Shown one piece after another: positions 8,114 to 46,724 of a stretch of DNA of 64,000 nt. The DNA comes from Scenedesmus sp. ARA3 (Eukaryota > Chlorophyta > Chlorophyceae > Sphaeropleales > Scenedesmaceae). The stretch covers positions 7,129-71,128 of the forward strand of contig RWJK01001481.1 of assembly GCA_004335835.1 (NCBI GenBank). The letters are read 5' to 3'. The notes beneath the pieces are model-generated. The model ran no database searches. It was not told where the DNA came from and saw only the letters and a program-made list of their open reading frames with translations. The translations under genes and the position numbers were made by a program. Numbering within the stretch: position 1 is the stretch's first letter; every line of letters starts with the position of its first letter.

Positions 8114-8159
<46 letters not shown>

Positions 8160-8714: not shown

Positions 8715-10430
8715 CTGCAGGACAAGCAAATGTTGCAGAAGGGTGCTCAACATGCTGATTTTGCAAGCTAGAGTGGTACAATGAGCCTGTGGTGAATGCA
8801 AGCCATGCGTGGAGCGCCATGCAGCTGCTGGCGCAATACGGTTGGCCAGCCTGTACGACACTGCTTGCGCGCATGGCTGCTGCTGCTGCTGCGGTTGCTG
8901 CTGCTGCGTATTCCATGCCATGCAGGGAGTAGTTGAAGGCTGCAGCATCAAGATGTGCTCAAAGCACCACTCCAGCAGACACTCTCACACACATGCATGG
9001 CTTGCAGGAAGCTGCTGCTGTTCAACTGCAGGTTCAACAGTGCTGCTGCAGTGCCCCAAACAGGCAATCTGTGTGGCAAAACGTAATTACAAGTTGCCCC
9101 AGCGCCTCAGCAGCATCTACATAGCCATGTCTGGCATCCACTGTCCCTGCCACAGCAGCACTGCTGGGACTGCTGCTGCCTCACCTGTGCAGGCTGCGCT
9201 TCTGAGCCTCGCCCAGCGCTGCTAGAGCATGGCTGACAGCTGGAAGCGCTGAAAAGCCTGCTGCAAGGCACGCAAAGCAACGTATGAGGTCTGCTGCTCG
9301 TTGCCATCGCTGCCTGTCTTGCCAGATGCCTCCCGTCAACTTTGAGCAGTCAAAACGCCAGTCATTGCGTTGAAAGCTTTATACAAGCGTAGGGCACATA
9401 CCTGCTCCAGATCGCGCCAGGGCAAGCAGCCCTGTGGCCAGTGAGCCAGGCATGGGGTGCTACTTTTTGCTGCGAGTGCGTAAGCGCCCAGATTTTCAAA
9501 GCCAACAAATGGAACTGGAGATGTAGCGTAGCAGCAGCGTGCTGCGCCGTGAGCAGCACGAACGGACCAGATCACCCAACCCTGCCCCGTTTTCTGTGCC
9601 AATACAGGGTAACGCGGGATTCAGTGTGCTCAAGTCACACTACATTACGGGCAGGAGAGGGCGACGTGTCATCGGTGCATGTCCTGGGCCCTGCTGACTG
9701 AACATCAGTGCTACTGACAAGGACATGCGAGCCAACTGCGACCATATGTTCAGCTTGAGGACTAAAACTGCTGCGGCACTTTCTTGAGAGACCTGCAGTT
9801 TCATGGGCCTTGAAACACGGCATGGCTAGCACCAGCACATTCGGACTGTGCTGCTGCTTGATTGCCAATGCTGCTGGCAATCTGCACGTGGTACTCTACT
9901 GCTTCAGCGCTGCTAAGACCAGCATGCACACACCCAACCCTTTGTAGTCAACTGCAACGGCTGTAGAATGCAACGCAGATGCTGCGGCAGCTGGCCAGCA
10001 GCAGACCACACCTGACAGGCCTGCAGCAGCGGGCCGGCTGTGCGTGTTACAGGTCTGCCTCAAAGCTGGGGTCACTGCAATGTGTCTGCAGAGGTGAATG
10101 CTGCTGCAGGTCATCAGGCGCACTGGGCTGCAGACGCAGAACCTGCAGCTGCCGGCAGCAGCAGGCAACCGTGCAGTGCTGCCCTGCAAGTGCGCAGCCT
10201 CTTGGCAACCAGCTTTAAAAATGCTGCAGCCACCCGGCTGGCGCTGCTGCTGTGCTACTGCCTCCTTGACCTGCCAGTGCTGCCAATTTGACTATTGCTA
10301 GAGCAGCAGATGCAGTGCAGGCAGGCTATGTGCTCCAGCTTGTGCTGATGCTCTTGCAGATCTTCTTGTCTTGGTGTGGTTCCCAGCTACGCTTAGCGCT
10401 GGTTTGTGGCGACAGCAGAAATGCTGCAGG
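8715..10430. other. Upstream region of nad7 and 3' flank of MYND gene A
   Basis: Probably contains the unresolved first exon(s) of nad7. A minus-strand open stretch at about 9190-9310 ends at a donor-like AG|GTGAGG, and one of its frames would join in phase to the 8573-8714 exon. The rest is CTG/CAG-interrupted sequence in which I recognise nothing. Confidence 0.4.
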
Positions 10431-12852
10431 CTACCTGGCCTGGCTGGCGGCGATGCTCTTGCACATCTCCTTATGGGCCGGGAAGTGCGCCACCTGGCAG
10501 GCCTTGCTGCAGTAGCGCGCAGCCCTGCAGCAGTAGCAGCAGGTGCAGCGCATGCGCTGAAGTTTGGTGTGAAATCATCATCTTTCTTTGAGCGACAATG
10601 TTGGCATTATGTGGTGGGCGAGTCATGTCAGTATGTGCTACGTGTACATGCAGTCCTGCAAGGGAACGCATGTACTTGCTGTACAGCAGCGTAGTCATGC
10701 ACAACACAGCAAGAAACTGCAATCTCACTGTTGACAGCATGCGCCAAACGCAGGTGAGGCACAGATTGTGCAGCTGAGGCATATAATGTGCAACTGCAAA
10801 TGGCAACAGCTGTCAACTGCCAAGGGAGTCAATGAACCTCATAAGCGGAAAGCGCCTGAAAAGTAGGCAGCATTGCACCCGCAGCATTGCACCCACCTGC
10901 AGCGGGAGCACTGGCTGTCCCTGTGCGACACCAGCTGCTGCTCACTCGCCCCGCGCAGCTCAATACATCCAGGGTTGTTGCAGCAGTGCGCCACAGGGCA
11001 CAGCGCGGCCAGCGCCTCCCCACATGCCACCAGCCGCTGACTCAGCCCAGGCAGCAGCACAAGCAATGCTGCAACTGATGCCTGGCTGCTGCTGCTGCTG
11101 CTGCTGCGGCCAGCATCTGCGGATTCTGCTGCTGCGCTTGCAGCACGCAGTGCATCCTGGGTAGCAACCCGCTGCTGCTGCAGAGCCCTGAGCTTCTTCA
11201 GCAGCTGCCGCCGCTCTGACCCAGCAGGCAGGTCTGCTGCAGGCAGCACCTGTTGCAAGGCCCCCACCCCCTCCAGCAAGTCGCCCACAGCGGTGTGCAG
11301 GCGGCTGATTGCCTCTTGCTGCTGCATGTAGATGAGAACCATTGCGCTGGGGTCATCCCCTTGGGGTTCCATTGGAAGCAGCGAGGCCTGGCCGCAGGCA
11401 ACAACTAAGTTATGCAAGACCCCGCCTGCAGCAGTACAGCTGCGTGCAGCCAACATGAGGCCCTGGTTATCTGCAGCAGTGCTGCCTGCTGCAGCAGCAC
11501 TGGTGCTGCCAGCAGAGCCGTTAGCAGCAGCAGCAGCACTGGTGCTGCCAGCAGAGCTGTTAGCAGCTGCTGCTGCTGCTGCTGCTCCAGCCGCTGTTGC
11601 TTCTGTTGCTCCCTGCGTGCTCTGACGCAGCGCAGCCGCATGTTTCATTACTCCTGCGAGTGACGCTGCGTCCATGCTAGCTCCTAAGATCCGGGCGCTG
11701 CTCATTGCCGGTGTGACCGCAAGCTGTGGCGCAGCAGCCAGTGCTGTGTAGGCCGCCTGCACAAGTTTCATGCAGCTGCATTGCAGAGAGAACATCCGCA
11801 GTTCAGGCAGCTCCTGCTGCTCTGCGCCTGCGCTGTTGTTGTCGCCGTCCACAGCAATGCTGCAAGCTTCTAAGCTGATGGTTGCCAAGGGTAGGAAGTC
11901 CCTCAGCTGATCTGCTGTGCTGCTCCGAACTGCCAGCTCCAGCGCTTGGCATGTTATCAGCGGCTGCTGCTGCAGCAGCTCTGCCAGCAGCTGCGGGTCA
12001 CCTGCAAATGTATAGGCACAGCAGGCTGTTCAGTCCATACAGTTCAAGGCATGAAGTCCAGACTCATGTGTGTTGTGCGTGTGTTGCAGTGCAGATGTGC
12101 AGTGCAGCATGGTTGGCAGAAAGCGTGCTTCAGCTACATCTGAGATAACAAAACGCTGGGGCGCGCCGTACGCCACTGGTAACCCAACCTAGTACGATCT
12201 AAACAGCCAGCACAGGTTGTGGCAGTCACGAAATCAGAGCACTCTCTTTCTCTGATGCCCTTCTGCACTCTATGGCTTGCTCACCTGCCCCTACCAGCTG
12301 CGCCACTACTGATCCAAACACCTGACAGGTGTCTTTTGGATGCTGTTGGTGAAGCACTTCTGGATGCTGTAGCACATGCTGCACTGCTTGCGACAGCAAA
12401 TGCAGCACCGGCGGCAGCAGCACAGCAGCAGCAGCAGCCTCTAAGCAGCCATGCAGGTCCAGTGCTTGGGTGGTGTGGAAGCACAAGCAGACAGCAGTCC
12501 AGCAGCAGTTGGCAGGGTCCAGCAGTGCGGCCTCAACCATCAGCAGCACCTGCTCCAGCGAAGGAACTGCTGCAGCTGCCTGCAAGCTCTGCCAGCTGTG
12601 CTGCTGCTGCTGCTGCTGCTGCTGTGCATGTAGCATCACCCCTGCGCCTCTACTGCCGGCAATGCCACTGCCACTGCTGCTGGCTTCATAGCAGCCTTGA
12701 ATAGCTCGAGCTTGCAGGAATCGAATGAGGCCAGCCAAGCTCACAGGCGGCACATCCTCCCTGATGGATAGCTTGGTGCATGGAGCACCAATTACAGTAA
12801 GGTACTGCTCATGGTAACTGGGCGCCTCCAGCTGCTGCCGCCTGCTGCTGCT

Positions 12853-12885
<33 letters not shown>

Positions 12886-13363
12886 TGATGTTGCTGCTTC
12901 TATCGACATTGTTTTGAGCTTGCCGTGCTCAACTTGCAGCCCCCAAGCCAGCAGCAGATACAGCAGCTGCAGCAGGCAGCAGGCGCCTGCTGGATCTGCT
13001 CCTGCCATCTCAGAAGGCTTCTTCAACGGTTGTAGCATGTGGGCTGTGAGCATTCGCGTATGCTGACAGCAACCCAGCCTTGTCCAGGGCTGTCATCAGG
13101 CTCATGTGAACCGTGGAAACATCATCTGTGTAGGCTGCTGCTGCTGCTGCTACTGTTGTTGCAGCGGGAGTGGCAGCAGCAGCACTTCCAGTGCTACTCC
13201 TGCTGCTGACAGGTTGAATTTTTCAGCAGTGCTGTGCACAGCTGTGCCAGTGGGAACAGCAGCTGCTGCCACTGCTGCTCATCACTTGTGCGGTGCCTGC
13301 ACAGTGTTGTGAAGGCATGGACGAGCCTCAGCAAGCTTTCTGCTAGCTCTTCATGGCCACGTT

Positions 13364-13422
<59 letters not shown>

Positions 13423-13637
13423 NNNNNNNNNNNNNNNNNNNNNNNNNNNNNNNNNNNNNNNNNNNNNNNNNNNNNNNNNNNNNNNNNNNNNNNNNNNNNN
13501 NNNNNNNNNNNNNNNNNNNNNNNNNNNNNNNNNNNNNNNNNNNNNNNNNNNNNNNNNNNNNNNNNNNNNNNNNNNNNNNNNNNNNNNNNNNNNNNNNNNN
13601 NNNNNNNNNNNNNNNNNNNNNNNNNNNNNNNNNNNNN

Positions 13638-13961: not shown

Positions 13962-14894
13962 GACTGCCGGCTAGATGTTGCTGAAGAGCGCGTATAACTA
14001 GCAGCACCCAGCAGAGGAGCAGCAGGAGCAGCACTGAGCGAGCTGAGGCTCTGACAAGGCCTGCCGTTGCACTAACAAACCTTAATGATGTTGTTATCTA
14101 ATGTTAAGCTTCGAGATCAACACGGACTGCCGCACAAGCGTCGGAACCTTGCTTGCGAGACACTTGTACGAGGGAGACGGTATGGACAAGGTGTGAGCGC
14201 TAGTCAGCTGCTCCGAAAGGCAGAAACGATAGGTTGAGCATGCACCATAGACTGAAGCGTATTCGGTCGCGTTGTCACCCTGTCAGGCAGCAACGTTACA
14301 CCCAACTGTTCTCAAGAACTTTCACCCAAACGCCAAGGCCGTGCGGGTATGTTAGGGCGTCAACCCTCGTTTTTCAGATAGACAAACGAGTTCATAAAGT
14401 AACACCAGCACAAGCACAGCATGTGGCCAGTCACTTACGCCGTTTCGACGCAACACCGGATCACCGAGCGTGCAGGTTGCTGCACCCAGGCTGTGTGTTC
14501 TGTGCTTCCTGACAGGCTTTCAAGCAGCGATATTATAGTCCTCGTAAAATGCTGAGCACGTCAGACGTATGAAGCTCGAAGTTGCTTGCATCAACAGCAG
14601 GAGCACCCAACTGGCATTCACGTGACGTCAGGTGAATGATCCACGTTACCCAGTGCCAGCTCATATGGCAGCTGTGGACCATGCCAGCAGTCAACGCAAG
14701 CACACTGCGCTTCCTGCACCAACTGATGTGCCACGGCAGCGCGCACAGCCAGCAGTTGCTGACAGCTGCAGGCAACCAAGCGATGGGAGGCTTCCCCGCA
14801 AGCACTGCAATCAGCTGCCACACGCTGCAGCCTGCTCGCGTTTGACGCAGCCAGTGGCGCTGCTGCTATTCAAAAGCAGCAGCTCGGCTGCAGG
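13962..14894. other. Intergenic interval between the two MYND genes
   Basis: About 930 bases, less repetitive than its surroundings. It should hold the promoter of gene A and the terminator region of gene B. No coding feature was recognised. Confidence 0.5.
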
Positions 14895-17800
14895 TTACTT
14901 TGCCTGGCTGGCGGCGATGCTCTTGCAGATCTTCCTGTGGGCTGGGTGGTGCGCCACCTGGCAGGCCTTGCTGCAGTAGCGCGCCATCCTGCAAGCGGCA
15001 CACAAAGGCAAAGCACAACTGGCGGCGTCAGTGACCTGAGACGAGCATGCCAAATTAACATGAACGGCCGGCCGCAGCGCACGTTTCTGCAAGCAGCAGC
15101 AGCTGCACAAGCAGCGCCGCTGGGACTGCAGATGTAAGATGAGCATGTTGCATGAAGCTGCGGACGATGATGACGGCGACTGATTTCCTCAATGCTGCAA
15201 CATCAACAGCAGCCAGATGTGTTTGATGCCGCCTGATTCACCACTGAAGTCAAGAGTTTGTCACAAACAAATAACGGTTATTGAGGGTTGTGAATATGAC
15301 TCCCTGGCACCACACTAACCTGCAGCGGGAGCACACACAGCCCTTGCCTGCCACCAGCTGCTGCTCACTGGGGCCGCGCAGCTCCACGCAGCGCGGGTTG
15401 TTGCAACAGTGCGGCACAGGGCACAGCGCTGCCAGCGCCTCCCCACACGACACCAGCCGCTGACTCAGCCCCGGCAGCAGCGACACCAACGCTGCAGGCA
15501 ACACTTCACTGCTGTTGCTGCTGCTGCTACTGCTGCGTGCTGTGGCTCGCAGCACTGCCTGTGCAGCAGCCAGCTCCTGGTGCAGCTGCAGCAGCTGCTG
15601 TGCAAGGCGCTGCTGCATGCTGTCGCGCAGCTCTGCGGCTCCAGGCATGGATTACCCAATGCTGGGCAGTGCAGCCTGCATAAGCTCACCACCCTCCTGC
15701 AGATGTGACATTGTAAGGCGTAACCAGCCACACATTTTTCGCGGTGTGGTTTCCTCACCAACTGCAGCTGACTCCGGTTGTGATGGCTGTGCCACCTCGC
15801 CAGCTGCAGGACTGCCGGCAGCTACAGCCGCTGCCACCTCGTCAGCTGCAGAACTGCTGTCAGCTGCTGCCGCTGCCACCTCTCCAGCTGCAGGAATGCC
15901 GCCAGCTGCAGCCGCCAACGCCGCGCCAGCTGCAGGAATGCCGCCAGCTGCAGCCGCTGCCACCTCGCCAGCTGCAGAAATGCCGCCAGCTGCAGCCACC
16001 AACGCCGCGCCAGCTGCAGGAATGCCGCCAGCTGCAGCCGCCAACGCCGCGCCAGCTGCAGAACTGCTGGCAGCTGCTGCCGCTGCCACTTCGCCAGCTG
16101 CAGGAATGCTGTCAGCTACAGCCGCTGCCACCTCGCCAGCTGCACGACTGCTGGCAGTCAAGGCCGCCAACACCTCGCCAGCAGCAGTAAAGCTGCCGGC
16201 TGTTAGCATCAGCAGCCGGCATAGCACTGCCTGCTCTGTAGGTGCAGCGCCACTGCTGGCGCAGCCGCTGGCTGCAGCTGCTGCCGATGAAGATGAGCAG
16301 CCATCATCCCGGCTTGCTGCTGCTGCTGCGGCTGTTTGGCCATCCAGCCCCTCCTGCTGCTGCCCCCCACACAGCTGCGCTGAGTACATCAGCGCCCTGG
16401 ATGCTGTCACTGCATGGCCAGCAAGCGTATCGCAGAGCTGTGCTGTGCACGGCTCTCTGCCCCCAGCAGCAGCAGCAGCAGCAGCAGCGGCTGCAGCCAC
16501 TGCAGCAGCACGCATTTGCTTCACGCAGCTGAAAGGCAGCGAGAATGTGTGTGGTGCTGGCCCTGCAGGGCCTGGCCCCGCGACTGCTGCGCCTAGCTGT
16601 GCAGCATCGCACAGCTGCATGGTTAGGTTGGTCAGCAGTGTGCAATGCTCCAAATCCTGCGGGAGGCTGCCCCTGACTGCCAGCTCCAGCGCCTGACACG
16701 TCAGCTGCGGCTCCTGCTGCAGCATTGCCAGCAGCTGCTGCTTGCTACCTGCGCATAGAGAGGTGCAATGGAGCGTTCTTTGAGATATCGCAGCAGTGGC
16801 CGCAGCCATGTGAAAGCGCATATCCTAAGCTACTGCTTGGTGCCGGCTGCTGTGACCACAAGAGAGACTGCTGAGCGCCCAGAATCTGATTTACTGTCCG
16901 AGCAGCAGCATGTGCTTTCAGGAAATGGAGCAAGCTGCCATCAAGACTTCCAGCAGCGAACAAGGTTGCCGCCTGAGCAGCCATCTGAGCAGCTAATAGA
17001 GCATGATGAGCATCATGCAAAGGACGCTGCTGAACATGCTGGCTGCTCTCCATGCGCCGGCTGCCACAACTCGGAGCAACTCGATGATGGACCGGGACAA
17101 TTGATGATGGGCCTGGATATATTGGTCGCAAACGCGTAGCTAACGTTTGTGACAGTACTGACAGCAAGCACGTTTGAACTGTTGATGAAGCAGTGAAAGC
17201 CGGTTGGCCACTACCCCCTTTCAAAACTTGAAGCAACTCAGGCACGCAGCAAGCTCCTGTCGCATCGCACCTTCGGGCAGGAGCAGCCTTATCACCATTG
17301 CAGCAAAGAGATCTGGCAGCTCCGCAGCACCAGCGCAACCTGCCACTCGCTCCGACTGCTGCTGCATCACGTGCTGCACTACCAGCGGCAGCAGGTGCAG
17401 CGCAGGCGGCAGCAGCACCCCTGCGGCCTCCTCTAAGCAGCCATGCTCTGCCAGCGAGCAGCAGGTGACACGGAACATGTGGAGTGCAAAGCCAATGCCA
17501 TTGGGAAGGTCCAGCAGTGCTGCCTCTAGCACCATCAGCAGCTGCTCAGGGGTGGGTACCAGTGCAGACACCTCCAGCTCGCGCCAGGCTGCAACACTCA
17601 GTGTGCTCTGCTTCTTCTTCTTCTTCTTCTTCTGCTGCTGCTGGGCTCTCGCTGCGTGCGTATGCATCGCAGCTGCCAGTGTTGCCAGTGCTAAAGGCCT
17701 TGGGCAGACAGCTGCCAGCTTGTCTGTGGGAGCACCAACAGCACGAAGGTACTGCTGGTGTTAGCAAGGGACCTGCAGAATCTGCTGCCTGCTGCTGCTG

Positions 17801-18334
17801 CTGCTGCTGCTGGGGAGCTGTGCTGCTATCGGTGACCTTCCTTTGAGCTTCCCGTGCTCAGCTTGCAACGACCAGGCCAGCTGCAGGTGCAGCAGCCGCA
17901 GCAGGCAGCAGGCGCCTGCTGGGTTGTCGAGTGCCAGCTGCTCCCATGCAGCAGGGCCTCCACCATCCGAGTCTTCTAGCATGCCGGACTTTGCCAGCAT
18001 CTCCGCCAGAGCATCAATCATGCTTGCAACCAGAAAGGAGTATTCTGACGGCGCCGGCGCCCAATGAGCAGCTGCCGAGGCAGCAGCATTGCGCCGGCCG
18101 CCGCCGCCGCAGCTGCTGCTGCACCCGGGTGATGTTGCGGTGGTGCTGATGCTGCTGGCTGTATCGGATGGTCCTGGCAAAGCCTGCAGTGCAGCTGCAC
18201 CAACCTCTGCGGCTGGCAGCAGCACTGCTTGCCACTGCTGCAGGTCAGACGTCCGGTGCTTGCTCAGCAGAGCGAAGACCCGCAACAGCTCCACCACGGC
18301 ACCAGCTAGGTTCAGCTTGTTGCGTATCTGACTG

Positions 18335-26300: not shown

Positions 26301-29252
26301 TGGTGCATGGCAGACTTTGTGATTCAAAAGAAGCTGTATGAAGGCTACGCTTCAACCATCTGCAAGGTGAGATGTTGAAATGTTTCTTGCTGACGTTCAG
26401 CCGTAGTGTGCAAGTTTAGCTGCTGTCGCATTACCAAAGAAGCTGCGCGAAGGCTGCGCCTCGACCTTCTGCAAGGGTGACGGCTCTGGTGGTAACAGCT
26501 ACCCAGCTGCTGGCCTACGTTATAGCCCTGTCTCTCTGTGCTGAAAAAAACGCTACCAGGTGACGTCAACTCAGCTGGGAATTGCATGCTGCCGCAGCCT
26601 GAGCTGCTTGTGCAGGTCTGCGGATTTTCGGCACTTTTGACTGCTTCACAGCTGAATTTCACACAGCAATTCACAGCTGAAGTTCTCACAGCATGCTCCG
26701 AAACTGCGGATTTCGCTGTCCTGGCTCCTACACCGTGCAACACATGATCTGATGCGTTGTGTTGTGCTCTTGCTGCAGGCTTTTGACCGCGTATCAGGCT
26801 CCACAGTCGCGCTCAAGCTGTACCACATGAGCAAGCTCAACAGCATCAGTAGCCACCAAGTGGCGAGAGAGGTGGGGCTGCATTTGATCTGTGGTTCAGG
26901 GTTTGTTCTTCACAGTGCCCTGCCTGGTACTTCACAGTGCCCTGCCTGGTACTTCACAGTGCCCTGCCTGGTACAAAGTCGGCAAGCAAGCGCGAGATGC
27001 CGTAGTGCACTGTGCGCATGTATTGTGGCAGGAGTCGGCATCCTTGGGCAAGTTTGCCGAAGCACGGTCGACGATGCACCCGCAAGCGTCTCGAAACCTG
27101 TGCAGCAGCTGCTGTCATTTTACGCAAATCCATTCCCAAATTGCCACCGCTGAATGCTGCCACCTCCAGTGCTGTGATACACTCATGAGTGTGCCGCACT
27201 GCTGCTGCTGCTGCAGGTGCGGCTGCACACAGGGCTGGACCACACCAGCCAGCTTCTGCGGTACACCGCACCAACTGCGATAAATGTGTAGGCTGTGCTG
27301 TTCAGCTGAGCTCAACTCTCATGCTTTGCTGCTGATGTATGTACTGCTGCAGGTGCGGCTGCACATAGGGCTTGACCACGAGAACATCATCTCACTGTAT
27401 GCGGCATTCCAGGAGGCTGGCAACGTGGTGATGGTGCAGGTGCGGGCACAGCAAACACTCTGCTGTGCTGTTTATTGGGCTACGTGACATAGTGGCAAGT
27501 TATGTGCTATATCTAAATACTCCTGTACATAAGCAGCTTGGGGTATATATCCTGCAGCATGTAAAATGCTTGGGTGGACCACGAGAACATTATCTCACTC
27601 TACGCAGCATTCCAGGAAGCCGGCAATGTGGTCATGGTGCAGGTGCGGGCACAGTGACCAGTGCTATGTAGGATGTGTTACTTCTGAGATAATGTGTCAC
27701 GTTGTTTGCCACAGCATGTCAGGAGGCTGGCAACGTGGTGATGCTGCAGGTGCGCACATGGCAGCCGGTGCCATTATAGTGTCACTTACGGAAGTGGTGG
27801 AACATGTACCATGTCACCTGCTGTGAATAGGATGCACTTGCAGCGCACCCGGTTGCCGGTCGACATGCAGCAGTCATGCTGGGCTGCTTTGTCGCCAGCA
27901 AATTACTAAACTAGTCACACCAGCAGGTCACGCCACGCTACATCGTGACCTTACCAGCACGTGCGTCCTGAGTAACCAACTAACCAACTGACTGCACGTG
28001 ATATGCAGGAGTTTGCTGGTGGCGGCGACCTGTGGTCCTTCATGGATGCCAACAGTGGACGCCTGACGGAGCGCGTGACGGTGTCACTGGTGCTGCAGCC
28101 CTTCCTGCGGGCGATACACTACCTGCACACCTCGGGCATTGCGCACAGGTGCGGGTGCACTGGTTTGTATAACGCAAAGTTGTAGCTGAGGACTAGAACA
28201 GCGCGTGGCATTGCGCACGGGCGATACACTACCTGCACACCGCGGGCATTGCGCACAGGTGCGGGTGCACTGGTTTGTATAACGCAAAGTTGTAGCTGAG
28301 GACTAGAACAGCGCGTGGCATTGCGCACGGGCGATACACTACCTGCACACCGCAGGCATTGCACACAGGTGCGTATGTATTGGGCTGCCTCATGCGGTTG
28401 GGTGGAAAAGCCGGTGTTGTGCGAAGCCGTGGTTGTGCAGTATGCTGCAGCCGTTCTCAGGGCGATACACTACCTGCACACCGCAGGCATTGCGCACAGT
28501 TGCGTGTTTTGAGGTTCGGTTGCAATCATTGCTTTGCCGCACTACCAGTAGTGCATACGTGGGTATGTGCAGTGTGCTGCAGCCCTTTCATTGCTTTGCC
28601 GCACTACCGGTAGTGCGTACGTGGGTGTGTGCAGTGTGCTGCAGCCCTTTCTGAGAGCGGTGCAGTACCTGCACACCGCGGGCATTGCGCACAGGTGCGT
28701 GCGCGTGGGTCATGTTGCACACAGCAGGGTGTGCAGTGGGTTGTGTACTGCTGCTGTAGCACAAGTGTGTCCATTGGGTTGCAGCCTTTCCTGCGGGCAG
28801 TGCACTACCTGCATACTGCGGGCATTGCGCACAGGTGCGAGTGCAATTCAATACACTGCTTTGGGGTACTGCCCTTGGTGGATGTGTGCATTAGTGGATG
28901 TGTGCATTGCGCCGCAGCACTTCCACAGGGCAGTGCACTACCTGCACACCGCAGGCATTGCGCACAGGTGCATGCGTCAGTGACTGCTTTGCACGGATAG
29001 CTGCATTGCACAGCGTCATGCGTGGCTGCTTGCACTTTGTGGGCATTGCACACAGCTGCGTGTTATCTAGTCTGCATCACACTGCACATGGGTCCTGGTG
29101 TACACGTAGTCTTCGCGCACTGCGCACACAAACAGGCACACTGTTCATCTCTCTCTGCCGTCTCTCTGCGACTGCATCTCTGCGGTACGGCATGACAATG
29201 CTGTGCAGAAAAAAGAGCTGGCTGCGTCATACTCACTGCCATATGAGCGCTG

Positions 29253-29309
<57 letters not shown>

Positions 29310-29359
29310 NNNNNNNNNNNNNNNNNNNNNNNNNNNNNNNNNNNNNNNNNNNNNNNNNN

Positions 29360-29416
<57 letters not shown>

Positions 29417-29508
29417 ACGCAGGGACATCAAGCCTGAGAACGTGCTGTGCAGCAGCGGCATGGTGCTCAAGGTGGCCTGTGCTTTATGCCGTGCTCTTGG
29501 CTGTGCTC

Positions 29509-29551
<43 letters not shown>

Positions 29552-31951
29552 CAGGGACATCAAGCCTGAGAACGTGCTGTTCAGCAGCGGCATGGTGCTC
29601 CAGGTGGCAGATTTCGGGCTGGCAGTAAACTTGAGGGAGGAGCGAGCGGTCACACGAGTTGGTGAGTTGCAGCAGCAGCATGCTGTTAACTGTTGTTCTT
29701 GCTTGCCCTTGACAGGGGTTTTGGCCTGGCTGTAAACCTGAGGGAGGAGCGAGCGGTCACACGAGTTGGTGAGCTGCAGCAGCAGCATGCCGTTGACTGT
29801 TGCTCTTGCTTGCCCTTGACAGTGGTTTTGGCCTGGCAGTGAACCTCAGGGAGGAGCGAGCGGTAACACGAGTTGGTGAGCTGTAGCACATGCTGCCCTG
29901 TGTGGCTGCTGAGGTGCTGCTTGCAATTGCTGCCACGCTGCCAGATTGTCAAATTCTGTGCTGAATAATGTGCTGTACTGACCTTGACAGGTTTTAAACA
30001 TGCTGTGGCTTGCAAGCGTGCCAGCTGGATTCATGGCGCTCAAGGTGCTGCGCACAAGTTGGTCAGACTGTGCACTGCCTAGTCTGCTGTAAAAGAACAA
30101 AGTCTGTTGAACTCAAGTTCACCATATTTCCTGCGCTGGCACATGCAGGCACGCTTGACTACGCTGCTCCTGAGGTGCTGCGCTGCCCGCTGAAGCACCA
30201 GCCAGGTGCCACACTTGCATCATCTAGTGGACCACAGCACTCGTGTCACCTGCTGTTTCAATTGCTGGCACTTGCAGGCACGCTTGACTACATGGCGCCC
30301 GAGGTGCTGCGCTGCCCGCTGAAGCGGCAGCCTGGGGACAACAAGGACCGCCCAGAGCTCTTCTACAGCCAGGCTGTTGACGCGTGGGCTGTGGGGGTGC
30401 TGAGCTATGAGCTGCTGACGGGCAGGTACGTTGCACGTCTTGTCACAATCATGTGTCACAGTAACGTGTGCTGATGTGAGCTGGTGGTGGGCCAGCTGGG
30501 GCCGCCCGGAGCTCTTCTACAGCCAGTATGGGGATGCGTGGGCTGTGGGGGTGGTGAGCTATGAGCTGCTCACGGGCAGGTAGGTCACATGTCCTCTAAC
30601 AGTCACGTGCCACAGTAACGTGTGCTGATGTGAGCTGGTGGTGGGCCAGCCTGGGGCCGCCCGGAGCTGTTCTACAGCCAGTAAGGGGATGCGTGGGTTG
30701 TTGGGGTGCTGAGCTATGAGCTGCTCACGGGCAGGTGGTTGTGGGCCGCTGGTGTGCTGGTGGTGTGCTGGTGGTGGGCTAGCGGTGTTGATTAGTCAGC
30801 TATGGGCTGCTCACGGGCAGGTGGGCTGCTTGCGACTGGTGGTGTGCTGCTGGGCTGATGGTGGGCTGGTGGTGGGCTGGTGTGCTGCTGGTGGGCTGCT
30901 GGTGGGCAGCTGATGGGCAGCTGGTGGTGGGCTGGTGGCATGCCTAGTCCGTTGTAGACAACAATAACCACCAACCTGACAGCTGCACACCTTCTGCTGC
31001 TGCTGCTGCTGCTGCCAGGGCTCCCTTCTCCGCAACTGGCGCAAGCGACAGCGCCATCGAAGCAGCAATCCACTGCGCCGCACCAGCCTTCCCAAGCCGC
31101 ATGTCAGAGCCTGCCTCAAGCTTCATCGCTGCTGCGCTGCACAAGCAGCCTGAGAAGCGGCCGAGCATACTGGCTATGCTGCAGCACCCTTGGATACGCA
31201 GCTTCCAGGTGCGTGTTGCTGCAAATGCAAACAACCTAACCAGAACCTTGAGTAATGACTAGCAGAGAGTAGAGTGATTATCAGCGGCCGAAGAAGCGCC
31301 CAAGCATCCTGGCCATGCTGCAGCACCCCTGGATTCGTCGTTTCCAGGTGCGATCAGTAAACTCAAATGGTTTGATCCAATGTCGTGATACAAGGTAGCG
31401 ACCAAGCATCCTGGCCATGCTGCAGCACCCTCGGATACACTGCTTGCAGGTGTGCAGTTCTGCCAGACGGAATAACAGCCAGAGATGTACGGACCTCAAT
31501 TTCAAGTACTGTCTGTGCGGCGGGCAGTGACTTCGATGCCCAACTTTGGCCGCCACATGTACGCACCATCTGCAAGCATTTAACGCATGTTCGTCTTCAG
31601 CAGTTCTGACGGCTCTATGCTCGTGCCGCTGCCTGCTGCATCGTGCAGAGATCCAACTCAAATGACAGGTCGGAGCGGCGCAGCTCCCAGGAATATGCCG
31701 GGCAGGGAAAGCTGCTGGTGCCTGGTGCTGCTGCTGCTGCTGCTGCTGCCAATGCGGCGGCTGGTGCTGCTTCATCCAGCATGCAGCGCTCCCAACAGCT
31801 GCTGCCGCAGTTGGCTTCCAAAAGCGTCAGCAAGAAGGATGTAGCTGGCAGTAGCAGGGAGGAGGGGAAGCTGAGCAGCGCTGCTGTTGCTGCTGCTGGA
31901 GTGTACCACACCGATGACAACGGCATGACTGGCTATGCTGGCGGGTGGTAG
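23390..31951 (+). CDS. Aurora/CALK-like serine/threonine protein kinase
   Basis: Eleven exons join in phase to about 961 residues: 23390-23855, 24238-24520, 24949-25087, 25440-26366, 26779-26871, 27353-27439, 28009-28148, 29555-29661, 30278-30425, 31019-31208 and 31649-31951. The first ~585 residues are a Ser/Ala-rich, probably disordered tail with an Asp run (DDDDD, near 25880). The kinase domain begins at MADFVIQKKLYEGYAST. The glycine loop is degenerate, VALK lysine is about residue 618, then HRDIKPENVL, DFG (VADFGLAVN), TRVGTLDYMAPEVL, and DAWAVGVLSYELLTGR. The GTLDY-x-APE activation loop and C-terminal HPWI resemble Aurora kinases, specifically algal CALK-type flagellar kinases, which regulate flagellar length and disassembly. 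The subfamily call is from memory of motifs, not a search. Start context is CAACGCAATGG. Confidence 0.85.
24108..24190 (+). repeat. 5'-edge copy of kinase exon 24238-24520
   Basis: Repeats acceptor plus GTLTPxGKSLSRHSLTINSSKRL upstream of the full exon, then diverges into a stop. Two similar 5'/3' edge copies belong to the next exon pair: 25289-25340 repeats the start of exon 25440-26366 (GATTARDSSK...) upstream, and 26432-26477 repeats its end (KKLxEGxASTxCK) downstream. Confidence 0.8.
27570..27752 (+). repeat. 3'-edge copies of kinase exon 27353-27439
   Basis: A ~66-base copy at 27578-27643 (DHENIISLYAAFQEAGNVVMVQ plus donor) differs from the real exon at eight codons, all synonymous: Ile ATT/ATC, Leu CTC/CTG, Tyr TAC/TAT, Ala GCA/GCG, Glu GAA/GAG, Ala GCC/GCT, Asn AAT/AAC, Val GTC/GTG. 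A shorter copy with donor ends near 27750. A 5'-edge copy of the same exon lies upstream at about 27216-27240. Confidence 0.88.
28150..29060 (+). repeat. Array of about seven 3'-edge copies of kinase exon 28009-28148
   Basis: The (LQPFLRA)IHYLHTxGIAHR end plus donor recurs, with donors at about 28259, 28369, 28693, 28835 and 28968. A copy near 28499 has TT in place of the donor GT, and there are relics near 28590 and 29055. The first two units are almost identical 110-bp repeats including intron sequence. Later units keep coding sense with synonymous or conservative differences (Ile/Val, His/Gln, Ser/Ala). Confidence 0.88.
29255..29476 (+). repeat. CTG tract with 50-base N gap, followed by 5'-edge copy of kinase exon 29555-29661
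   Basis: A CTG tract on both sides of N at 29310-29359 runs into an acceptor and a copy of RDIKPENVLCSSGMVLKVA at 29423-29476. The real exon follows a second CTG tract. A Phe to Cys change separates the copy from the exon. Confidence 0.88.
29712..29880 (+). repeat. Two 3'-edge copies of kinase exon 29555-29661
   Basis: Copies ending near 29770 and 29876 carry GLAVNLREERAVTRVG plus donor. In the second copy four of four differences from the real exon are synonymous (GGG/GGC, GTA/GTG, TTG/CTC, GTC/GTA). Confidence 0.85.
30149..30830 (+). repeat. 5'- and 3'-edge copies around kinase exon 30278-30425
   Basis: Upstream at 30149-30205 is a copy of GTLDYxAPEVLRCPLKxQPG with acceptor. Downstream at about 30505-30582, 30655-30735 and a shorter 30795-30822 are copies of RPELFYSQ...DAWAVGVxSYELLTGR with donor. 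The second downstream copy contains a stop codon (TAA after CAG) and Ala to Val, so it is decaying. The real exon lies exactly between the two groups. Confidence 0.85.
31283..31452 (+). repeat. Two 3'-edge copies of kinase exon 31019-31208
   Basis: KRPSILAMLQHPWIRxFQ plus donor at about 31285-31348 and a more diverged copy at 31399-31450 (HPRIHCLQ), both downstream of the full exon. Confidence 0.85.
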
Positions 31952-37303: not shown

Positions 37304-40300
37304 ATGGAGCGGGCCAGGCAGCAAGGGTTCTTTGCTGCACAACAGCAGAACATCCTGCAGCTGCTCATTGCAACCCTGCTGCTCCTTGGCTGCGGCCTGC
37401 AACCGGCAGCGGCAGTTGCTGCTTGCACCACAAATGCTAGCTTCACTGGCTTGGGATGTGCCAGTGCCCTTACAGCAGTTCAGGCCCTGGTGGGAAACAA
37501 CAGTGGCATCACAATCGGCAATGCCACCTTCACTGGAAGTACTTCGGCTAGTTGCTCTGCCACAGATGGCCAGCTTGGCATCATCACCAACTTTGGACCC
37601 TGCCACTACCTGGGCACCACAGCAGGCTTCACAGGCTCAAGTGAGTGGTGTCAGCAGTCAAAGCAATGTCAGTCAAGCACTGTCAGCCGACTTGGCACGG
37701 TTCCAAACAATCTCACCTGAATGCCAGACGTTCAAAACAATGTCAGGCGATTGCCAAACAGCACAAGCTGCAACTACAGCATGTCTGTTGCGGCAGAGGC
37801 TGCCATGCATGGCATATGCGGGTGATCTTGGGTATATTGGGTATGTCTCAGCAGTCTGCAGGAATTCATGTTTAACACAGCTCGCTTGCATGTGGTTGAA
37901 CGACCATCTCATGCCTGGCGTGATCCGGTTATGTTTAGTGACACTCAACTTCAAAAGAAGTGATGCCAGCAACCCCTACGCTCTAGACTGAGCAACTGAC
38001 AAGCTCAACGTATGATTTTTAGCATTGCTGTGATCATGCTGCTGACACGGATCGGGTGGTGCTTGCTGCAGGTGCTGTTGTGTTGAGCACAGGCAAGGCC
38101 AAGTTTGCCGCATCAAGCACAGCTGTTGCAGAGACAGCGGATTCCACTACAAATTACTTCAATACATCGAATGGAAATGCAGACCCCGAGTTTGTAGTAG
38201 CTTTGACATCCATTGGACTTGACAGCTACACCAACTCAGTGTTTGATGCTGCAACGTTGGCGTTTGACATTCAGTCCTCCAAGCCCGGCATTCTGGAGTG
38301 GCAGTACGTGATGGGCAGCACTGAGTACAGCTTTTTAAAATTGCCCTTAGGATCAACATCATTCATGGACGCCTTTGTCATGTCAGTCAAAGCTCCTGGT
38401 GACTCAGTTGGAACCATTCTGACCAAAGTGCCTGGCACCAACAGCAGTGTGGCAATCAGCACTGTCAACTGGGAGACCAACAGCAATTCCTACATCGACA
38501 ACCGAGCAAATCCCCCTGCCCGGGCTACAGCAGCAAGCGGCCTGACTACCCTCTTAAAAACTCAGGCGTACGAAATTGCGGCTGGAGTCCGGTACAGGAT
38601 CAAGTTGGTGGTGGCAGACATTGGTGACAACACGTACGACACCATGGTCTGGGTCAAAGCCGGTTCCCTGCAGATCTCATGTAAGTCTTACGTCTTGCAG
38701 AATGTGTCGGCTTGGGAATATGTCACTTGCCAGTTGGCAAGCCAGGTGGTTTGAATCATGTCAAAGCACCATGATGCTCAATGTGTGCATGCAGATGTTT
38801 GAGCTCCGCAAGATCCACTTGCTGCTCATTTGTTTTCTTCGATAGCTGGTGGCAATGTCCCGCACCCTTGCTGTCAAATTTGAGCATCACATACCTGTTC
38901 TAATCCATTGTTTTGCAGCTGACTGTGTTGGAAGCTGGCAGTCAGTGCCTGGCGCAACCTGTGTCAAGCAATGCCAAGGAGGCAATGGCACCTGGCAGGA
39001 GGTCTTCAAAGTTACACAGGCTGCCTATCCTGGAGGAGCTTCCTGCGAGGCCGCAGATGGTGACACTCGCACTGCCAACTGCACAAACAGCACCCCTTGC
39101 CCAATCAACTGCGTGGGCTCCTGGCAAGTCACAGCTCCCTGCAATGCTTCCTGTGGCAATGGCGTTGGCTTCACTACTGAACGCTTCAGCATCAGCGTCC
39201 AAGCACAGTACAATGGCACAGCTTGTGCGGCTACAAACGGCACGGTGCGCACCGTCACCTGCAGCAACAGCACCCCGTGCCCCATCAACTGCCAAGGTGC
39301 GTGGCAGGTGGCAGCACCTTGCAATGCCACCTGCAACAGTACTGGCTACATCACAGAGCAGTATATTGTCACAGTCCCAGCGCAGTTCGGCGGGACAAAC
39401 TGTACGGCAGCTCATGCAGCAGTACGTCTTGTGAACTGCAGCAACAGCCAGCCATGCCCCATCAACTGCCAAGGGGTTTGGGAGGAGGTGACACCCTGCA
39501 ACGGCTCATGCAACAACGGCAGCGGCATTGCTACAGACCGCTACAAGGTCACTGTGCAAGCGCAGCACAATGGAACGCAATGCGAGGCCGCTCACTGTGA
39601 AGAGCGTACACGCAACTGCACCAACACTACGCCTTGCCCTGTCAATTGTGAAGGGGCGTGGGTGGTGGCGGTTCCATGCAATGGTGCGTGCGACAATGGC
39701 ACTGGCTTCACAACTGAGAGTTTCAACGTCACTGTGGCAGCAGAGTACAATGGGACAGCATGTGAGGCGGCTAATGGCACCCTGCGCTTCCCAAACTGCA
39801 CCAACACCGATCCCTGCCCAGTGAACTGCACAGGAAGCTGGCAGCTGGCCGCAGCCTGCAATGCGTCATGCGGCAATGGCACTGGCTTTACTACTGAGTA
39901 CTTCAATGTGGTTACTGAAGCGCTGTACAATGGCACATGTGAGGCTGCCAATGGCACACTTCGCTTCCCAAGCTGCGTCAACACCGATCCTTGCCCAGTG
40001 GATTGCTTTGGAGCTTGGGTGCCGCTGTCACCATGCAACGCTTCATGCGGCAATGGCACTGGCGCTTCCACTGAGTATTTCAGTGTGGTGACTGAAGCCC
40101 AATTCAATGGCTCCTGTGAGGCGGCCAACGGCACGCTGCGGTTCCCAAGCTGCAACAACAGTGATCCTTGCCCTGTGGACTGCATTGGAGCTTGGCAACT
40201 GGCACAATCATGCAACGCTTCATGTGGCAACGGCACGGGCTTTATGAAGGACCAATATGTGATCCTCACTGCAGCGGCACACAACGGCAGCCAGTGCACA

Positions 40301-41413: not shown

Positions 41414-44400
41414 GCAATGTGCTTGGGAGATTTATAGATGACAATATTAAACAAGAACTTGAGTGCATTCTCTGCAAACAGCAGTCTGCAATGTGCATCA
41501 TGAAGGTTGATCAACAGCTGATTTCTGCATCCAGCTTGCAGGCATTGGTTATATGTTGCCATGGCTTGAAGTTGCTTACTGCTCACAATATATGACTTTT
41601 CTGGGTTGTTGCACTTAGAGAGTTTGATTCCTGCACCTGGCCTTGGTGTGTTATGATCCTTGTGACCTGCTGTGGTTCTTTCTTGCCCGTGCTGATGATC
41701 TGCTCTGCGATCAACCCTAGGTGCCAAAACAGCTTATCGTTGCATCAGCTGTGAAGCTTTTCACCAGCAACATCCTCAACATATGTTTGGGCCAGCGCAT
41801 GCTGCTGGCAAACCACAAGGGCAGGCTTTCAATTAAAGGTTGCAACCCCTATCTCGCAAGAAGTGAAACCAACTTCTTATCCCTGCCTGCATGTTGTTTG
41901 CATGCAATGCTACGCAATGTGTGTTGCCCTGTTGTCACCATCATACTATGATAGTACACACACAACATCGCTGCAGTCTTAGTTTGTTGAAGTTGAGATC
42001 TGGTTGGTATTCACGGCTGGCTTCTTGGTTTTGAGTTCAGCATCTCAAGGAGCTTCTGCATGGCTATGATCCACCCTGTGGCACCAATGATGCCAGTTGC
42101 AACAGACCCCTGTCTGAGGTTCTGTGTGCCAAAGGGCTTCTTCCCCAGCAGCAAACATAAAACCAAAACAACTACTGTGCGCTTGATGAGCACTGGTGAC
42201 ACCATGTTCGCCAGTTGCTGCTTGTTATATCAGGAAGTACTAGTGTTTCTGTCACCTGCCTGCAGTGCTGCGCTGCTTTTGGCACCAAAGCGCCAAAACA
42301 TGCTCAACCCTGGTTTGACAGCTGATGTTATATCCTTTTCAAACTTTTGGACTATCTTCATGCATGCAACAGCTTGCATGCTTGTGTTGAGAGCTGATTT
42401 TTGAGCATCATAAACAGTGATGCTGCATCTTGGCTTGACATGCATGTTAGCAATCAAGCCATATGGCTTGACACGTTGTGGCCGCATCTACCAAAACTTG
42501 TTGAATGTTGGGACTGCAGTTTTTGACGTTTGCTTCCTTGCAGCTGTCTCTAGTATAGTAAGAACTGAGCCCTTTTGTCATGCCAGATCACTCACTTCTG
42601 TCACAACAGGATGTGGATGTTAATTACAGCAGCTCATTCTGTTGCCATAACAGCTGTGTTGTTGTGTTAATGACGGCCGAATTGCTGTTACAGCTGCTGA
42701 GTCACCATTATCATAACAGCCGAGTCAGTGTCGCTGTAGCAGCTGAGTCACTAGCAGGATGCCAGCTGTGTAACCGTTGACTTGACAAAGGCACTCTTTT
42801 TGCATCGCTGCATTGTGTGGCTGTGCCACATAAAACACTTGTGGCCAATGCGGCCCATCATAGCCTACAGGTCCAGTGGTCTTTTGAGGCCAGTTGTTCC
42901 TTGAGGGAGCAGAGTTGTTAGCCGTCATGGGCATACATGTCAGCATGGCATGCGCATGGCTGCACATGGGCAGCAGGCACAGCTGGCAGCTCTTTTGACG
43001 CATTTGCAGCAGATGCGGTGTGGAGCTGAAGCCTTTGCGGCAAAGCTGCTGCAGTGGGCAGGATGCTTGTCATCTAAGGGAGGGACTGGTGTGTGGTATA
43101 TACCATATATGCTCAGGGTTTTAGAGTGCTTTATACCCGGGCACATTGCTGCCAGGGCATTACGTGGCTTACTGCCCGCAGCGGCACACACTTGGCATGA
43201 GTGGATTGTAGGATGCATCATTGCAGAAATGTGTACCACAGCTGTTGTGTGACGCTATTAGTGTTGAGGAACTGCCTTACACAAAGGGTGTAGCACTGCG
43301 CAATGCTACCAACAGAATCTCTGGCATTGATAACATTGCAAGCACTGCTGCATTGTGTGACGTGTTTGAGTCCCCAGGATCTTCTCTTGGTGTTACTCGC
43401 TCCTGCATCAAGGCTACAAGCAGCGCATGGATATGCACGAGGCCTGGCTGCCACGAGTTGGAGGCACCGGGACAGCTGCTGAGTGCTGCTGCCAGCACCA
43501 CCCGGGGTGGCGCGCGTACGCTTCTGCATCGTGGTTACAGGCAGCACTTATAACACTGCGAGATGCATGATTCCCGTGTGCGGCTGCTACATTGCCGCCA
43601 GGCGAGCCACGACCGTGGCACAGTGCACGGTGTGCAGTATCAGCAGCTGCTTCATTCTCTCCATTATGAAGGGCCCTATGTTGTTTTCTCATCACCCGAG
43701 TGCAGCACAAACTGCCAGGCAGGCATCAAGTGTGGAGCAGAGTATGATTGCAGCTGTGGTTTGCTTGGTTGCACATGATGTGCTCTGCTGATGTATCTGG
43801 CCACTGGCCATAAACAATGCCAGTGCCTGGCTTTGCGCAGTATGCTGGCTGGGCTAGCAGTACTGTTGATCCTGCCACTACTGCACACGTTGGCAGCTAG
43901 CGCATTGCAGCATTGACCCGCACGGCTGACCCTTTATCAGTACATTTTCAAACTGAACTGCTTGGTGAGATGCACTCGTCTACAGCAATAAGCACTGCTT
44001 ATGCCAGTGCTTTGCAACGGCGGTAGTTACATGACCGCTGCTTGAACCATTTGCTATACAGCCTGATATCACTGGGTATTGATACTCAGTGCAGCCTGGT
44101 CCACGCAAGTGCGCGGGACCAGATTCGGACGTGCATTGTCTCCTGTCATGAGCCACCAAGCTTGGGCACATGCATGACCTTATATTTGCAGTAGCTCTAT
44201 TCAAGAAGTCACACATGCAACTGACAAAAGCCGTCAGCCAGCCATCTCCCCGGCTTCGTACCTAGGAGCCTCCTCAAACCGCCACAGCCAAATGCTGCGC
44301 GCATACTGCCGCAGCTGCTGCACCTCTGTCTCGTGAGCTGAGCTGAGTGATATATGCAGTTGGACGCCAACTGCTGCTGCTAGTAACTTGGCATTGAAGG

Positions 44401-44666: not shown

Positions 44667-44882
44667 CTAGCCGGCCATCTCCCCAGCCTCATATCTAGGA
44701 GCCTCCTCAAACCGCCACAGCCCAATACTGCGAGCATACTGCCGCAGCTGCTGCACCTCATCACTGCTCACTGGCCTGTTGATATCTTCATAGCTGTCCC
44801 AGCCCTGCCTGCTGCGCTGCTCACCAGAGCCAACCAGGTGGCGAGGGGAGTACTGCTCCATGATGTGCACGTAGGTGTCCCT

Positions 44883-44923
<41 letters not shown>

Positions 44924-46724
44924 TGTCACGGTTCACCCAGACAGGACAGTCCACACGGCTGCTGCCCAGAGCCCAAGTGCCGCCGCCGCCGCCGCCGCAG
45001 CAGCAGCAGCAGCAGCTGTCACAGTCCACACGGCTGCTGCCCAGAGCCCAGGTGCCGCAGCAGCGGACTCCTCTTGATCTACGCATGCGCATTGCAACGC
45101 ACACGGCCACGCCCACCTGCCCAGTTCCATCACCACCCAGTCCAGGATTGCTTTCCCTTCATCAACCAGGCCAGGCATCACCAGGTGGCGCAGCAGCAGG
45201 CCACGCTTGGCCAGGCCGTCAGGGGAGAACACCAGGTCGCCCACCTGCATTCAGACAGACAGTTCGGCAGCGCAGTGGGGCATGTGCTTGTCAGCTGCGC
45301 TCTGATCGGCAGGCGGTAGGCAGCAGGCCGCGCTTGAACAGGCGGTAAGGAGAAAACCATTTCCAACCTGCACACCCGCAGACAGTTGAGCAGCGCAGAC
45401 AGTTGAGCAGCGCAGTGGGGCACGTGCTTGTCAGCTGCGCAGCAAGGCTCTGATCAGCAGGCAGCAGGCGGCAGGCGGCACTTGGCCAGGCCGTCAGGCG
45501 GAAACAACAGTTCTCCAACCTGCAATTCACAGCAGGTGAACACAGTGATGCAGGAAGATCATCGCCAACTCGACATCACCAGGTGGCGCAGCAGCAGGCC
45601 GCGCTTGGCCAGGCCATCAGGAGAAAATACCAGGTCGCCAACCTGCAAAGTTGTGGAAAACGGCACGAAGCAGTGCAGCAGCATGAGCAGCGTCGGCTGC
45701 TCAGAAGGCGCTGCCTGGCAGGCAGAAAGTATGATATCCCATGCTCAGCTGATACAGCTGCGTTGCCACCTCCCGCAAACGTCGCACTCCAGCAGCAAGC
45801 TATCACACAGATCAAGCAGCACCTCTTCAGCTTTCACCTGGAGGGCACGCTGAAAGCCATAGCACCTGATACCATCACGCCTAACAGACACATCCGCAGT
45901 ACACAATAGGCGCAAACACCAACCTCCAATGGCAGGCTATCATGCGCAACAAGTAGCCAGGGCCCCCACATGTCTGTTCATCTCTTTGATCACTGCCTTT
46001 GCCACTTCTGCATAGTCGTGCGCCTTTGCGCCTTAGCACAGCGCTGGCCTGACTCTGCTGTGAAGAACTTTGAATCTGGCAAATGAATCTGAGCAAGGCC
46101 ATCCATGAGTGCCAGGGAGGGCATTACAAACCAGCAGCACACATGTTATGTGTCCAGTTTGTACTCAGATCCAACGACCAATCACTGTGCGCTATGCAGC
46201 CAGTTCTTGAAGCGCACCTGTCTGTGCATCTTCTTGATCGCTGCCTTTGCCACTTCTGCATAGTCCCGCGCCTTTGCGTAGCGCTGGCCCGACTCTGCCG
46301 TGAAAAGCTTGAAATCTGGCATGTAAATCTCAGCAAGGCCATCCATGAGTGCCAGGGAAGGCATTACAGACCAGCAGCACACATGTTATGTGTCCAATTA
46401 GTAATCAGATCCAACGATCGATCACTGTGCGCTGTGTAGCCAGTATCCAAAGCGCACCTGTCTGTGCATCTCCTTGATCGCTGCCTTTGCCACTTCTGCA
46501 TAGTCGCGCGCCTTTGCGTAGCGCTGGCCTGACTCTGCCGCGAAAAACTTAAAGTCTGGCATGTAGATGTCAACAAGGCCATCCATGAGGGCCAGTGAGG
46601 GCAGGCCATCATACGCGCTGGTGTTGTAGATGATAGGAATGTTTAGGCCCTTCTCCACTGCTGCTGCAATGGCTTCCACCAGCTTTGGTGGGGAGAGGAG
46701 CAGCAGCAGCATCAGCATCAGCAT

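Follow-up and report, generated by a model that had tools for sequence, protein, structure and literature searches.

The introns analysed here hold arrays of partial exon-edge copies, each made up of a splice signal plus the coding edge of the adjoining exon, and in these copies amino acids and splice signals are kept much better than silent sites, which are in turn kept better than the adjoining intron. Across a joint set of 135 copies lying beside 48 of 87 exons (chaperonin, tRNA-synthetase, kinase and complex I exons and one radical-SAM-like exon), pS was 0.224 and pN 0.049, a pN/pS of 0.219 (0.18–0.27, exon bootstrap), while third positions took a share of 0.621 of the mismatches (0.58–0.66). 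The pattern itself is established by the counts on this gene sample, and from it we infer a mechanism: the copies may have arisen as tandem duplications that span splice junctions and are tolerated, with a coding edge that either goes on exchanging with the exon, in a population that is diverse and recombines, or comes from diverged alleles. We give this reading a probability of about 0.4, and no more, because only part of the simulated grid described below matches the data.

Part of the sample comes from the window (the whole 64,000-nucleotide stretch analysed), whose self-comparison gave 92 near-tandem matches, some with mismatches in a single codon phase (0, 8, 0 for 27374/27577 and 0, 0, 6 for 45176/45574) and many without such phasing. 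As a sample independent of these picked examples, chaperonin (PF00118) and tRNA-synthetase (PF00133) exons were located by profile in the same genome (an assembly of 87.27 Mb in 1567 contigs); the genes were picked regardless of the finding, and 13 loci were taken. We read 53 of the 59 chaperonin hits (the six left out lie on contigs C1260 and C1192) and 30 of the 37 synthetase hits (leaving out those on C732 and C1176 and two multi-stop rows), and profile hits judged to be copies, low-complexity or uncertain were not taken as exons. Kinesin, with 130 hits located in the genome, stands outside the joint set. Codon frames were set by translation and homology, and exon frames outside conserved domains were mostly unused in the counts. 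Copies were sought on the same strand only, up to 3 kb from the exon, and were dropped if they were shorter than 9 codons, of low complexity or overlapping a listed exon. At a looser threshold, 30 of 50 chaperonin exons had intronic partial copies (96 copies, 93 of which form part of the joint set).

The window carries a kinase gene on the plus strand, with a pN/pS of 0.227 (differences are given from here on as synonymous/non-synonymous). Its first exon found, recognised by translation at 26779–26871 and beginning AFDRVSGSTVALKLYHMSK, has zero copies that pass the filter. Exon 27353–27439 (VRLHIGLDHENIISLYAAFQEAGNVVMVQ) is followed by a copy of its 3' edge with a GTGCG donor at 27577–27642 (8/0 in 22 codons) and by a second at 27714–27749 (1/2), and is preceded by a copy of its 5' edge with a CAG acceptor at 27217–27243 (1/1). 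Six copies of the 3' edge of exon 28009–28146 (EFAGGGDLWSFMDANSGRLTERVTVSLVLQPFLRAIHYLHTSGIAH, by translation) lie downstream of it between 28218 and 28965, at 28218–28256 (0/1), 28328–28366 (2/1), 28443–28497 (3/1, with a gap), 28636–28692 (3.5/3.5), 28767–28832 (7/5) and 28911–28965 (4/6). Exon 29556–29660 (DIKPENVLFSSGMVLQVADFGLAVNLREERAVTRV) has one upstream copy of its 5' edge at 29424–29476 (0/2) and two downstream copies of its 3' edge at 29719–29767 (4/0) and 29826–29874 (5/1), and exon 30280–30423 (TLDYMAPEVLRCPLKRQPGDNKDRPELFYSQAVDAWAVGVLSYELLTG) likewise has one upstream at 30151–30206 (4.2/3.8) and two downstream, at 30499–30577 (4/5) and 30654–30732 (6.5/5.5, with one new in-frame stop). 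Exon 31020–31208, read by translation from APFSATGASDSAIEAAIHCAAP to WIRSFQ, is followed by copies at 31283–31347 (9/3) and 31397–31449 (4/4).

The remaining window genes in the set lie on the minus strand and together give a pN/pS of 0.187. The nad7 label (NDUFS2), proposed in the earlier note, is borne out by matches to PF00346 and to the 49 kDa subunit of complex I in the PDB (best matches 9f5x and 7arc). Together with richness in CTG/CAG, these best matches make the window, which lies on contig C1100, look like green-algal DNA. Its exon at 2926–3054, which ends in EIDR, has an upstream copy at 3105–3185 (1/1); the exon at 3662–3826 has two copies downstream, at 3511–3600 (3/1) and 3368–3457 (6/3), and three upstream, at 3882–3943 (1/1), 3993–4054 (1/2) and 4104–4162 (1/2). 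An upstream copy at 4607–4645 (0/2) accompanies exon 4414–4530, which was trimmed before a stop, and downstream copies at 5017–5085 (4/1) and 4867–4937 (3/3) accompany exon 5153–5299. The nad7 edge unit at 5818–5865 is one among four similar candidates for the spliced unit, the others being 5948–5995 (2/0), 5703–5744 (1/0) and 5588–5629 (1/0). The exon at 45119–45244, beginning VGDLVFSPDGLAKRGLLLRHLVM, has upstream copies at 45574–45642 (6/0) and 45468–45519 (5/6); it had been labelled radical SAM, and a Pfam search of three minus and three plus frames gave zero hits for that label. For a further label, GST, the sole support is one hit under its cut-off.

The observation that led to this analysis was that intronic copies differ from the real exons almost only at synonymous sites. 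The three all-silent cases quoted for it are exact (27577–27642 with 8 synonymous differences, 29719–29767 with 4 and 45574–45642 with 6, each with 0 non-synonymous), and a bias above chance is clear, but "almost only" overstates it: the 31 copies in the window carry 101.2 synonymous against 66.8 non-synonymous differences (pN/pS 0.21), only six of the 31 are all-silent, and sister copies in the same genes, such as those at 28911–28965, 30499–30577, 28767–28832, 45468–45519 and 29424–29476, show no such purity. About 60% of the differences in the window are thus synonymous, whereas a dead copy beside a constrained exon is expected to show about 60% non-synonymous differences, and not nearly all, since changes in the exon itself are largely silent. 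The larger sample shows the same bias, with a pN/pS of 0.228 (0.18–0.30) for the 93 chaperonin copies and 0.175 (0.11–0.29) for the 11 synthetase copies. A genome-wide dN/dS near 1 for exon–copy pairs, which the earlier note took as the outcome that would speak against it, was not what we found in this sample of 135 copies. The bias is uneven among loci (0.14 at L021 and 0.12 at L030; 0.56, 0.53 and 0.43, about the dead-copy value, at L025, L029 and L027) and among copies, which are overdispersed (p 0.003), some being clean and some decayed; 24 of the 135 have zero non-synonymous change.

Dead tandem duplicates, in which the silent excess would stem from mutation bias, counting or hit selection, are an improbable source of these figures. 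A trinucleotide mutation spectrum was derived from 109 pairs of local repeats; under it, a dead copy next to an exon open to silent change alone gives a pN/pS of 0.48 and a third-position share of 0.445, within ranges of 0.48–0.53 and 0.43–0.445 for dead copies next to a constrained exon. In 300 dead-copy simulations run at each copy's own divergence, the ratio ranged from 0.42 to 0.68 with a third-position share of at most 0.492, and none of the 300 reached 0.219; two runs to which the BLAST filter was applied yielded 0.60 and 0.52, and fourfold GC-to-AT rates brought the minimum to 0.37 in 100 runs. A loose control came from 82 local repeat pairs that lie outside the window's listed exons and copies; taken over all of their 263 open frames, third positions held a share of 0.371. 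The observed value lies outside the simulated ranges, and mutation spectrum and GC bias were accordingly rejected as the cause of the silent excess; in these models, duplicate-and-die is not able to yield much less than about 0.5. What does resemble dead copies is the array of six at L022 7967, with 4 synonymous and 8 non-synonymous differences, and the whole loci L025 and L029. The L022 array (7967–8730) consists of downstream copies with a period of about 107 and an intron identity of 0.81–0.90, and its neutral behaviour is unlike that of the pooled sample. For the sample as a whole, the pooled counts are reproduced neither by dead copies nor by the local mutation spectrum or GC-to-AT bias, which supports the proposal that a history of protein-level selection is common to the copies.

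The changes within copies bear on the same question. In the chaperonin set, copies compared with one another give a pN/pS of 0.33, and changes private to a copy have a third-position share of 0.49 (0.43–0.56) against a neutral 0.315, a class of which part may be ancestral states retained by the oldest copy. Simple arithmetic on the copy–copy and private changes is compatible with a non-synonymous rate in the copies of roughly 0.4 times the neutral one. Within an array, the nearest copy is more biased than the farthest (36 arrays, difference 0.12, CI 0.03–0.22), and copies of at least 20 codons are more biased than shorter ones (0.17 vs 0.31, CI of the difference 0.06–0.23); a stronger bias in nearer and longer copies is a prediction of exchange.

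The anatomy of the copies follows a simple edge rule. Of 57 upstream copies, 56 start at the acceptor edge, no more than 15 nt from the exon segment start, and of 78 downstream copies, 73 end at the donor edge, no more than 20 nt from the exon segment end, which may be the remainder expected from random short tandem duplications once selection purges those that alter the spliced product. In keeping with duplication across the junction, copies found in the same-strand search within 3 kb lie in direct orientation, adjoin their source and carry the junction. Splice-site retention was scored in 120 of the 135 copies (the remaining 15 have no clear junction), with AG kept in 42 of 49 and GT in 60 of 71. 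Exon and copy agree at about 0.9 for AG and GT, and the identity drops to 0.45–0.5 by the sixth intron-side base; part of the identity at the splice signals is shared consensus, since unrelated real junctions agree at 0.54, 0.71 and 0.94 at positions −5 to −3. Across 31 acceptors and 32 donors from the chaperonin, synthetase and window genes, the consensus is apparently TGCAG for the acceptor and GTGCG or GTGAG for the donor.

Homology on the intron side is detectable in 46 of the 135 copies, where about 96 would be expected had the intron diverged at each pair's silent rate, and among the 31 least diverged copies it is found in 18 against an expected 30.8. The coding parts are thus more alike than the flanks beyond what silent divergence predicts, although very fast intron turnover, involving CTG repeats, could instead account for the loss of intron homology. 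Copies without it keep AG in 26 of 30 and GT in 38 of 48, have a pyrimidine content of 0.68 (real acceptors 0.64, other CAGs 0.48) and carry a GTGNG donor, that is, G at +3 and +5; they look like working exon edges.

This resemblance raises the question of use in place, that is, that the splice sites of the copies are active and their coding edge reaches the protein in some transcripts. The joint conservation of amino acids, AG/GT and pyrimidine tract would suit such use, as would the stronger bias of the 102 copies that keep the dinucleotide (0.20, against 0.29 in the 18 that lose it, with a CI of the difference that includes zero) and the number of new in-frame stops, 3 among 135 copies against about 6 expected from the neutral share, too few to decide (six copies hold a stop, and in three of them the stop already stands in the profile-defined exon segment). 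Mutually exclusive exons, which are tandem duplicates of whole exons with both splice sites, resemble the present arrays in being coding-constrained exon copies in tandem. In contrast, the copies described here are one-edged fragments: they cover less than 0.91 of the exon segment, with the exception of one copy of the 48-nt nad7 fragment query, and their inner ends show no excess of splice sites (GT at 11/57 and AG at 19/78, against backgrounds of 0.28 and 0.31). Whole-exon alternative splicing was rejected for this sample on these grounds. Moreover, indels of a length not divisible by three occur in 14 of the 135 copies, and the 17 frame-broken copies are about as biased as the 118 intact ones (0.25 and 0.22). 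The lack of a splice-site excess at inner ends, together with the frameshifts in some copies, makes in-place translation improbable for the majority, and we regard use in place as a poor prospect; the suggestion that the copies are translated alternative exon ends is not supported as a general reading.

The main rival to exchange predicts much the same counts. Under it, a fragment of a diverged functional allele, or of an introgressed homolog, was placed in the intron by one unequal event and has since been dead, with no continuing exchange. Copies with many silent and zero non-synonymous differences are what such capture would leave (10/0 in 34 codons at L022 4824–4926 and 10/0 in 26 codons at L021 1713–1794), and in the array at L021 1591–1975 the spacers, judged by eye, are mutually unlike, each ending in a pyrimidine-rich stretch and AG. 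However, silent divergence in some pairs reaches 0.5–0.67, an interspecies level, intron homology is undetectable in 13 of the 31 least diverged copies, and pN/pS shows no steady rise across four divergence bins (0.25, 0.18, 0.16 and 0.33). We consider capture without continuing exchange unlikely, if less so than use in place. Functional paralogs, also suggested as a source, found no backing for the kinase stretch, which matched its own locus only, with no second genomic source, in an assembly DNA search of limited sensitivity.

A draft assembly of 1567 contigs, with N runs inside CTG repeats, might also have inserted the exon edges of other haplotypes or strains into introns. Against such an artefact stand the graded decay with frameshifts and the tandem units of constant period, and up to eight differently decayed copies flank a single exon, which leaves interleaved haplotypes unsupported as a general reading. 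The chaperonin hits are spread over 11 contigs, about as many as eight CCT subunits and organellar Cpn60 would lead one to expect, so that no second haplotype set is evident. An assembly origin is very unlikely.

We return to exchange with the working exon. The copies would originate when a short stretch spanning a splice junction is duplicated in tandem, an event that selection would tolerate because the splicing edge next to the remaining exon stays intact. They would not be dead on arrival: the coding edge would go on recombining with the exon, by gene conversion and by unequal exchange between chromosomes, because exon sequence would be the only homology remaining between diverged homologs. 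Units would rotate through the working position and be screened there by selection, or else be recent fragments of diverged working alleles, and copies that lose homology would drift and then decay. It is conceivable, and we put this part more tentatively than the whole, that exon edges form multicopy rotating pools, in which the working edge on the acceptor or donor side is one among several intronic units and their trading places by recombination lets selection on the exon maintain the amino acids, splice dinucleotides and pyrimidine tracts of untranslated copies.

Simulations of conversion with recombination come close to the data in part of the grid. At 2Nc 4 and 2Nr of at least 20, they gave exon–copy ratios of 0.21–0.23 and copy–copy ratios of 0.35–0.38 with theta 0.08, and 0.18–0.21 and 0.31–0.35 with theta 0.05, where 0.22 and 0.33 were observed. 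At 2Nc 1 or 2 with theta of at least 0.05, ratios of 0.32–0.52 did not fit even with recombination, and theta 0.02 at 2Nc 4 overshot (0.10–0.16); the absolute levels need a neutral diversity of theta about 0.14, extrapolated from theta 0.08. Conversion without recombination gave 0.38–0.58. Gene conversion on a single chromosome does not help because silent and non-synonymous differences are then erased equally fast, and selection acting on the copies only through harmful conversion into the exon there, for which argument leads one to expect about 0.5, was rejected alongside these conversion-only runs. Mismatches are clustered within copies when pooled (p 0.017 over 76 copies, 6 of them individually below 0.05), a weak mosaic signal.

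Tandem genomic duplication as a source of intron gain or change is the subject of PMC4974935, on the potato RdRp case, and of the review PMC3443670, which cites Gao and Lynch 2009 and Hellsten 2011; there, as here, a short duplication across an intron–exon boundary brings splice signals along, whereas the present copies lie inside existing introns, frequently as arrays flanking the exon on both sides, and show protein-level constraint. In the concerted evolution of paralogs by gene conversion (PMC10503786), exchange and purifying selection jointly keep coding sequence alike, with the difference that the partner here is a partial copy in an intron of the same gene and not a second gene. In the hypervariable mushroom Schizophyllum commune (PMC4209137), two parental genomes differ by 0.14, a distance comparable to the diversity that the simulations need, and crossovers lie in exons above chance; exons there likewise offer enough similarity for very diverged homologs to exchange sequence; allelic exchange was observed there in offspring, whereas the exchange we propose would take place between misaligned copies. 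Among algae-directed and general literature results, judged by their titles, none was recognised as this pattern. If the exchange reading is true, intronic sequence can come under protein-level constraint without translation, via exchange with the exon, and dN/dS is no proof of alternative exon use; it would also offer a route to intron growth and splice-site replacement, and it directly predicts a pattern of polymorphism.

The window contains further repeats. Two gene-sized stretches, 10423–12993 and 14887–17922, are similar to each other in several blocks (69–88% identity) and are probably tandem paralogous genes. Within 15711–16286 lie ten overlapping copies at 42-base spacing, one phase being richer in mismatches in several pairs. 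Repeats of about 180 bases at 39042–40290, offset by a multiple of three and with a codon-like mismatch phase (77/143/69), are probably coding repeats, and 44236–44326 and 44669–44759 form a phased pair with 7 of 8 differences in one phase and an offset not divisible by three. Runs of CTG or CAG are dense across the window, and N runs occur inside long CTG repeats at 29310–29359 and at about 13423–13637.
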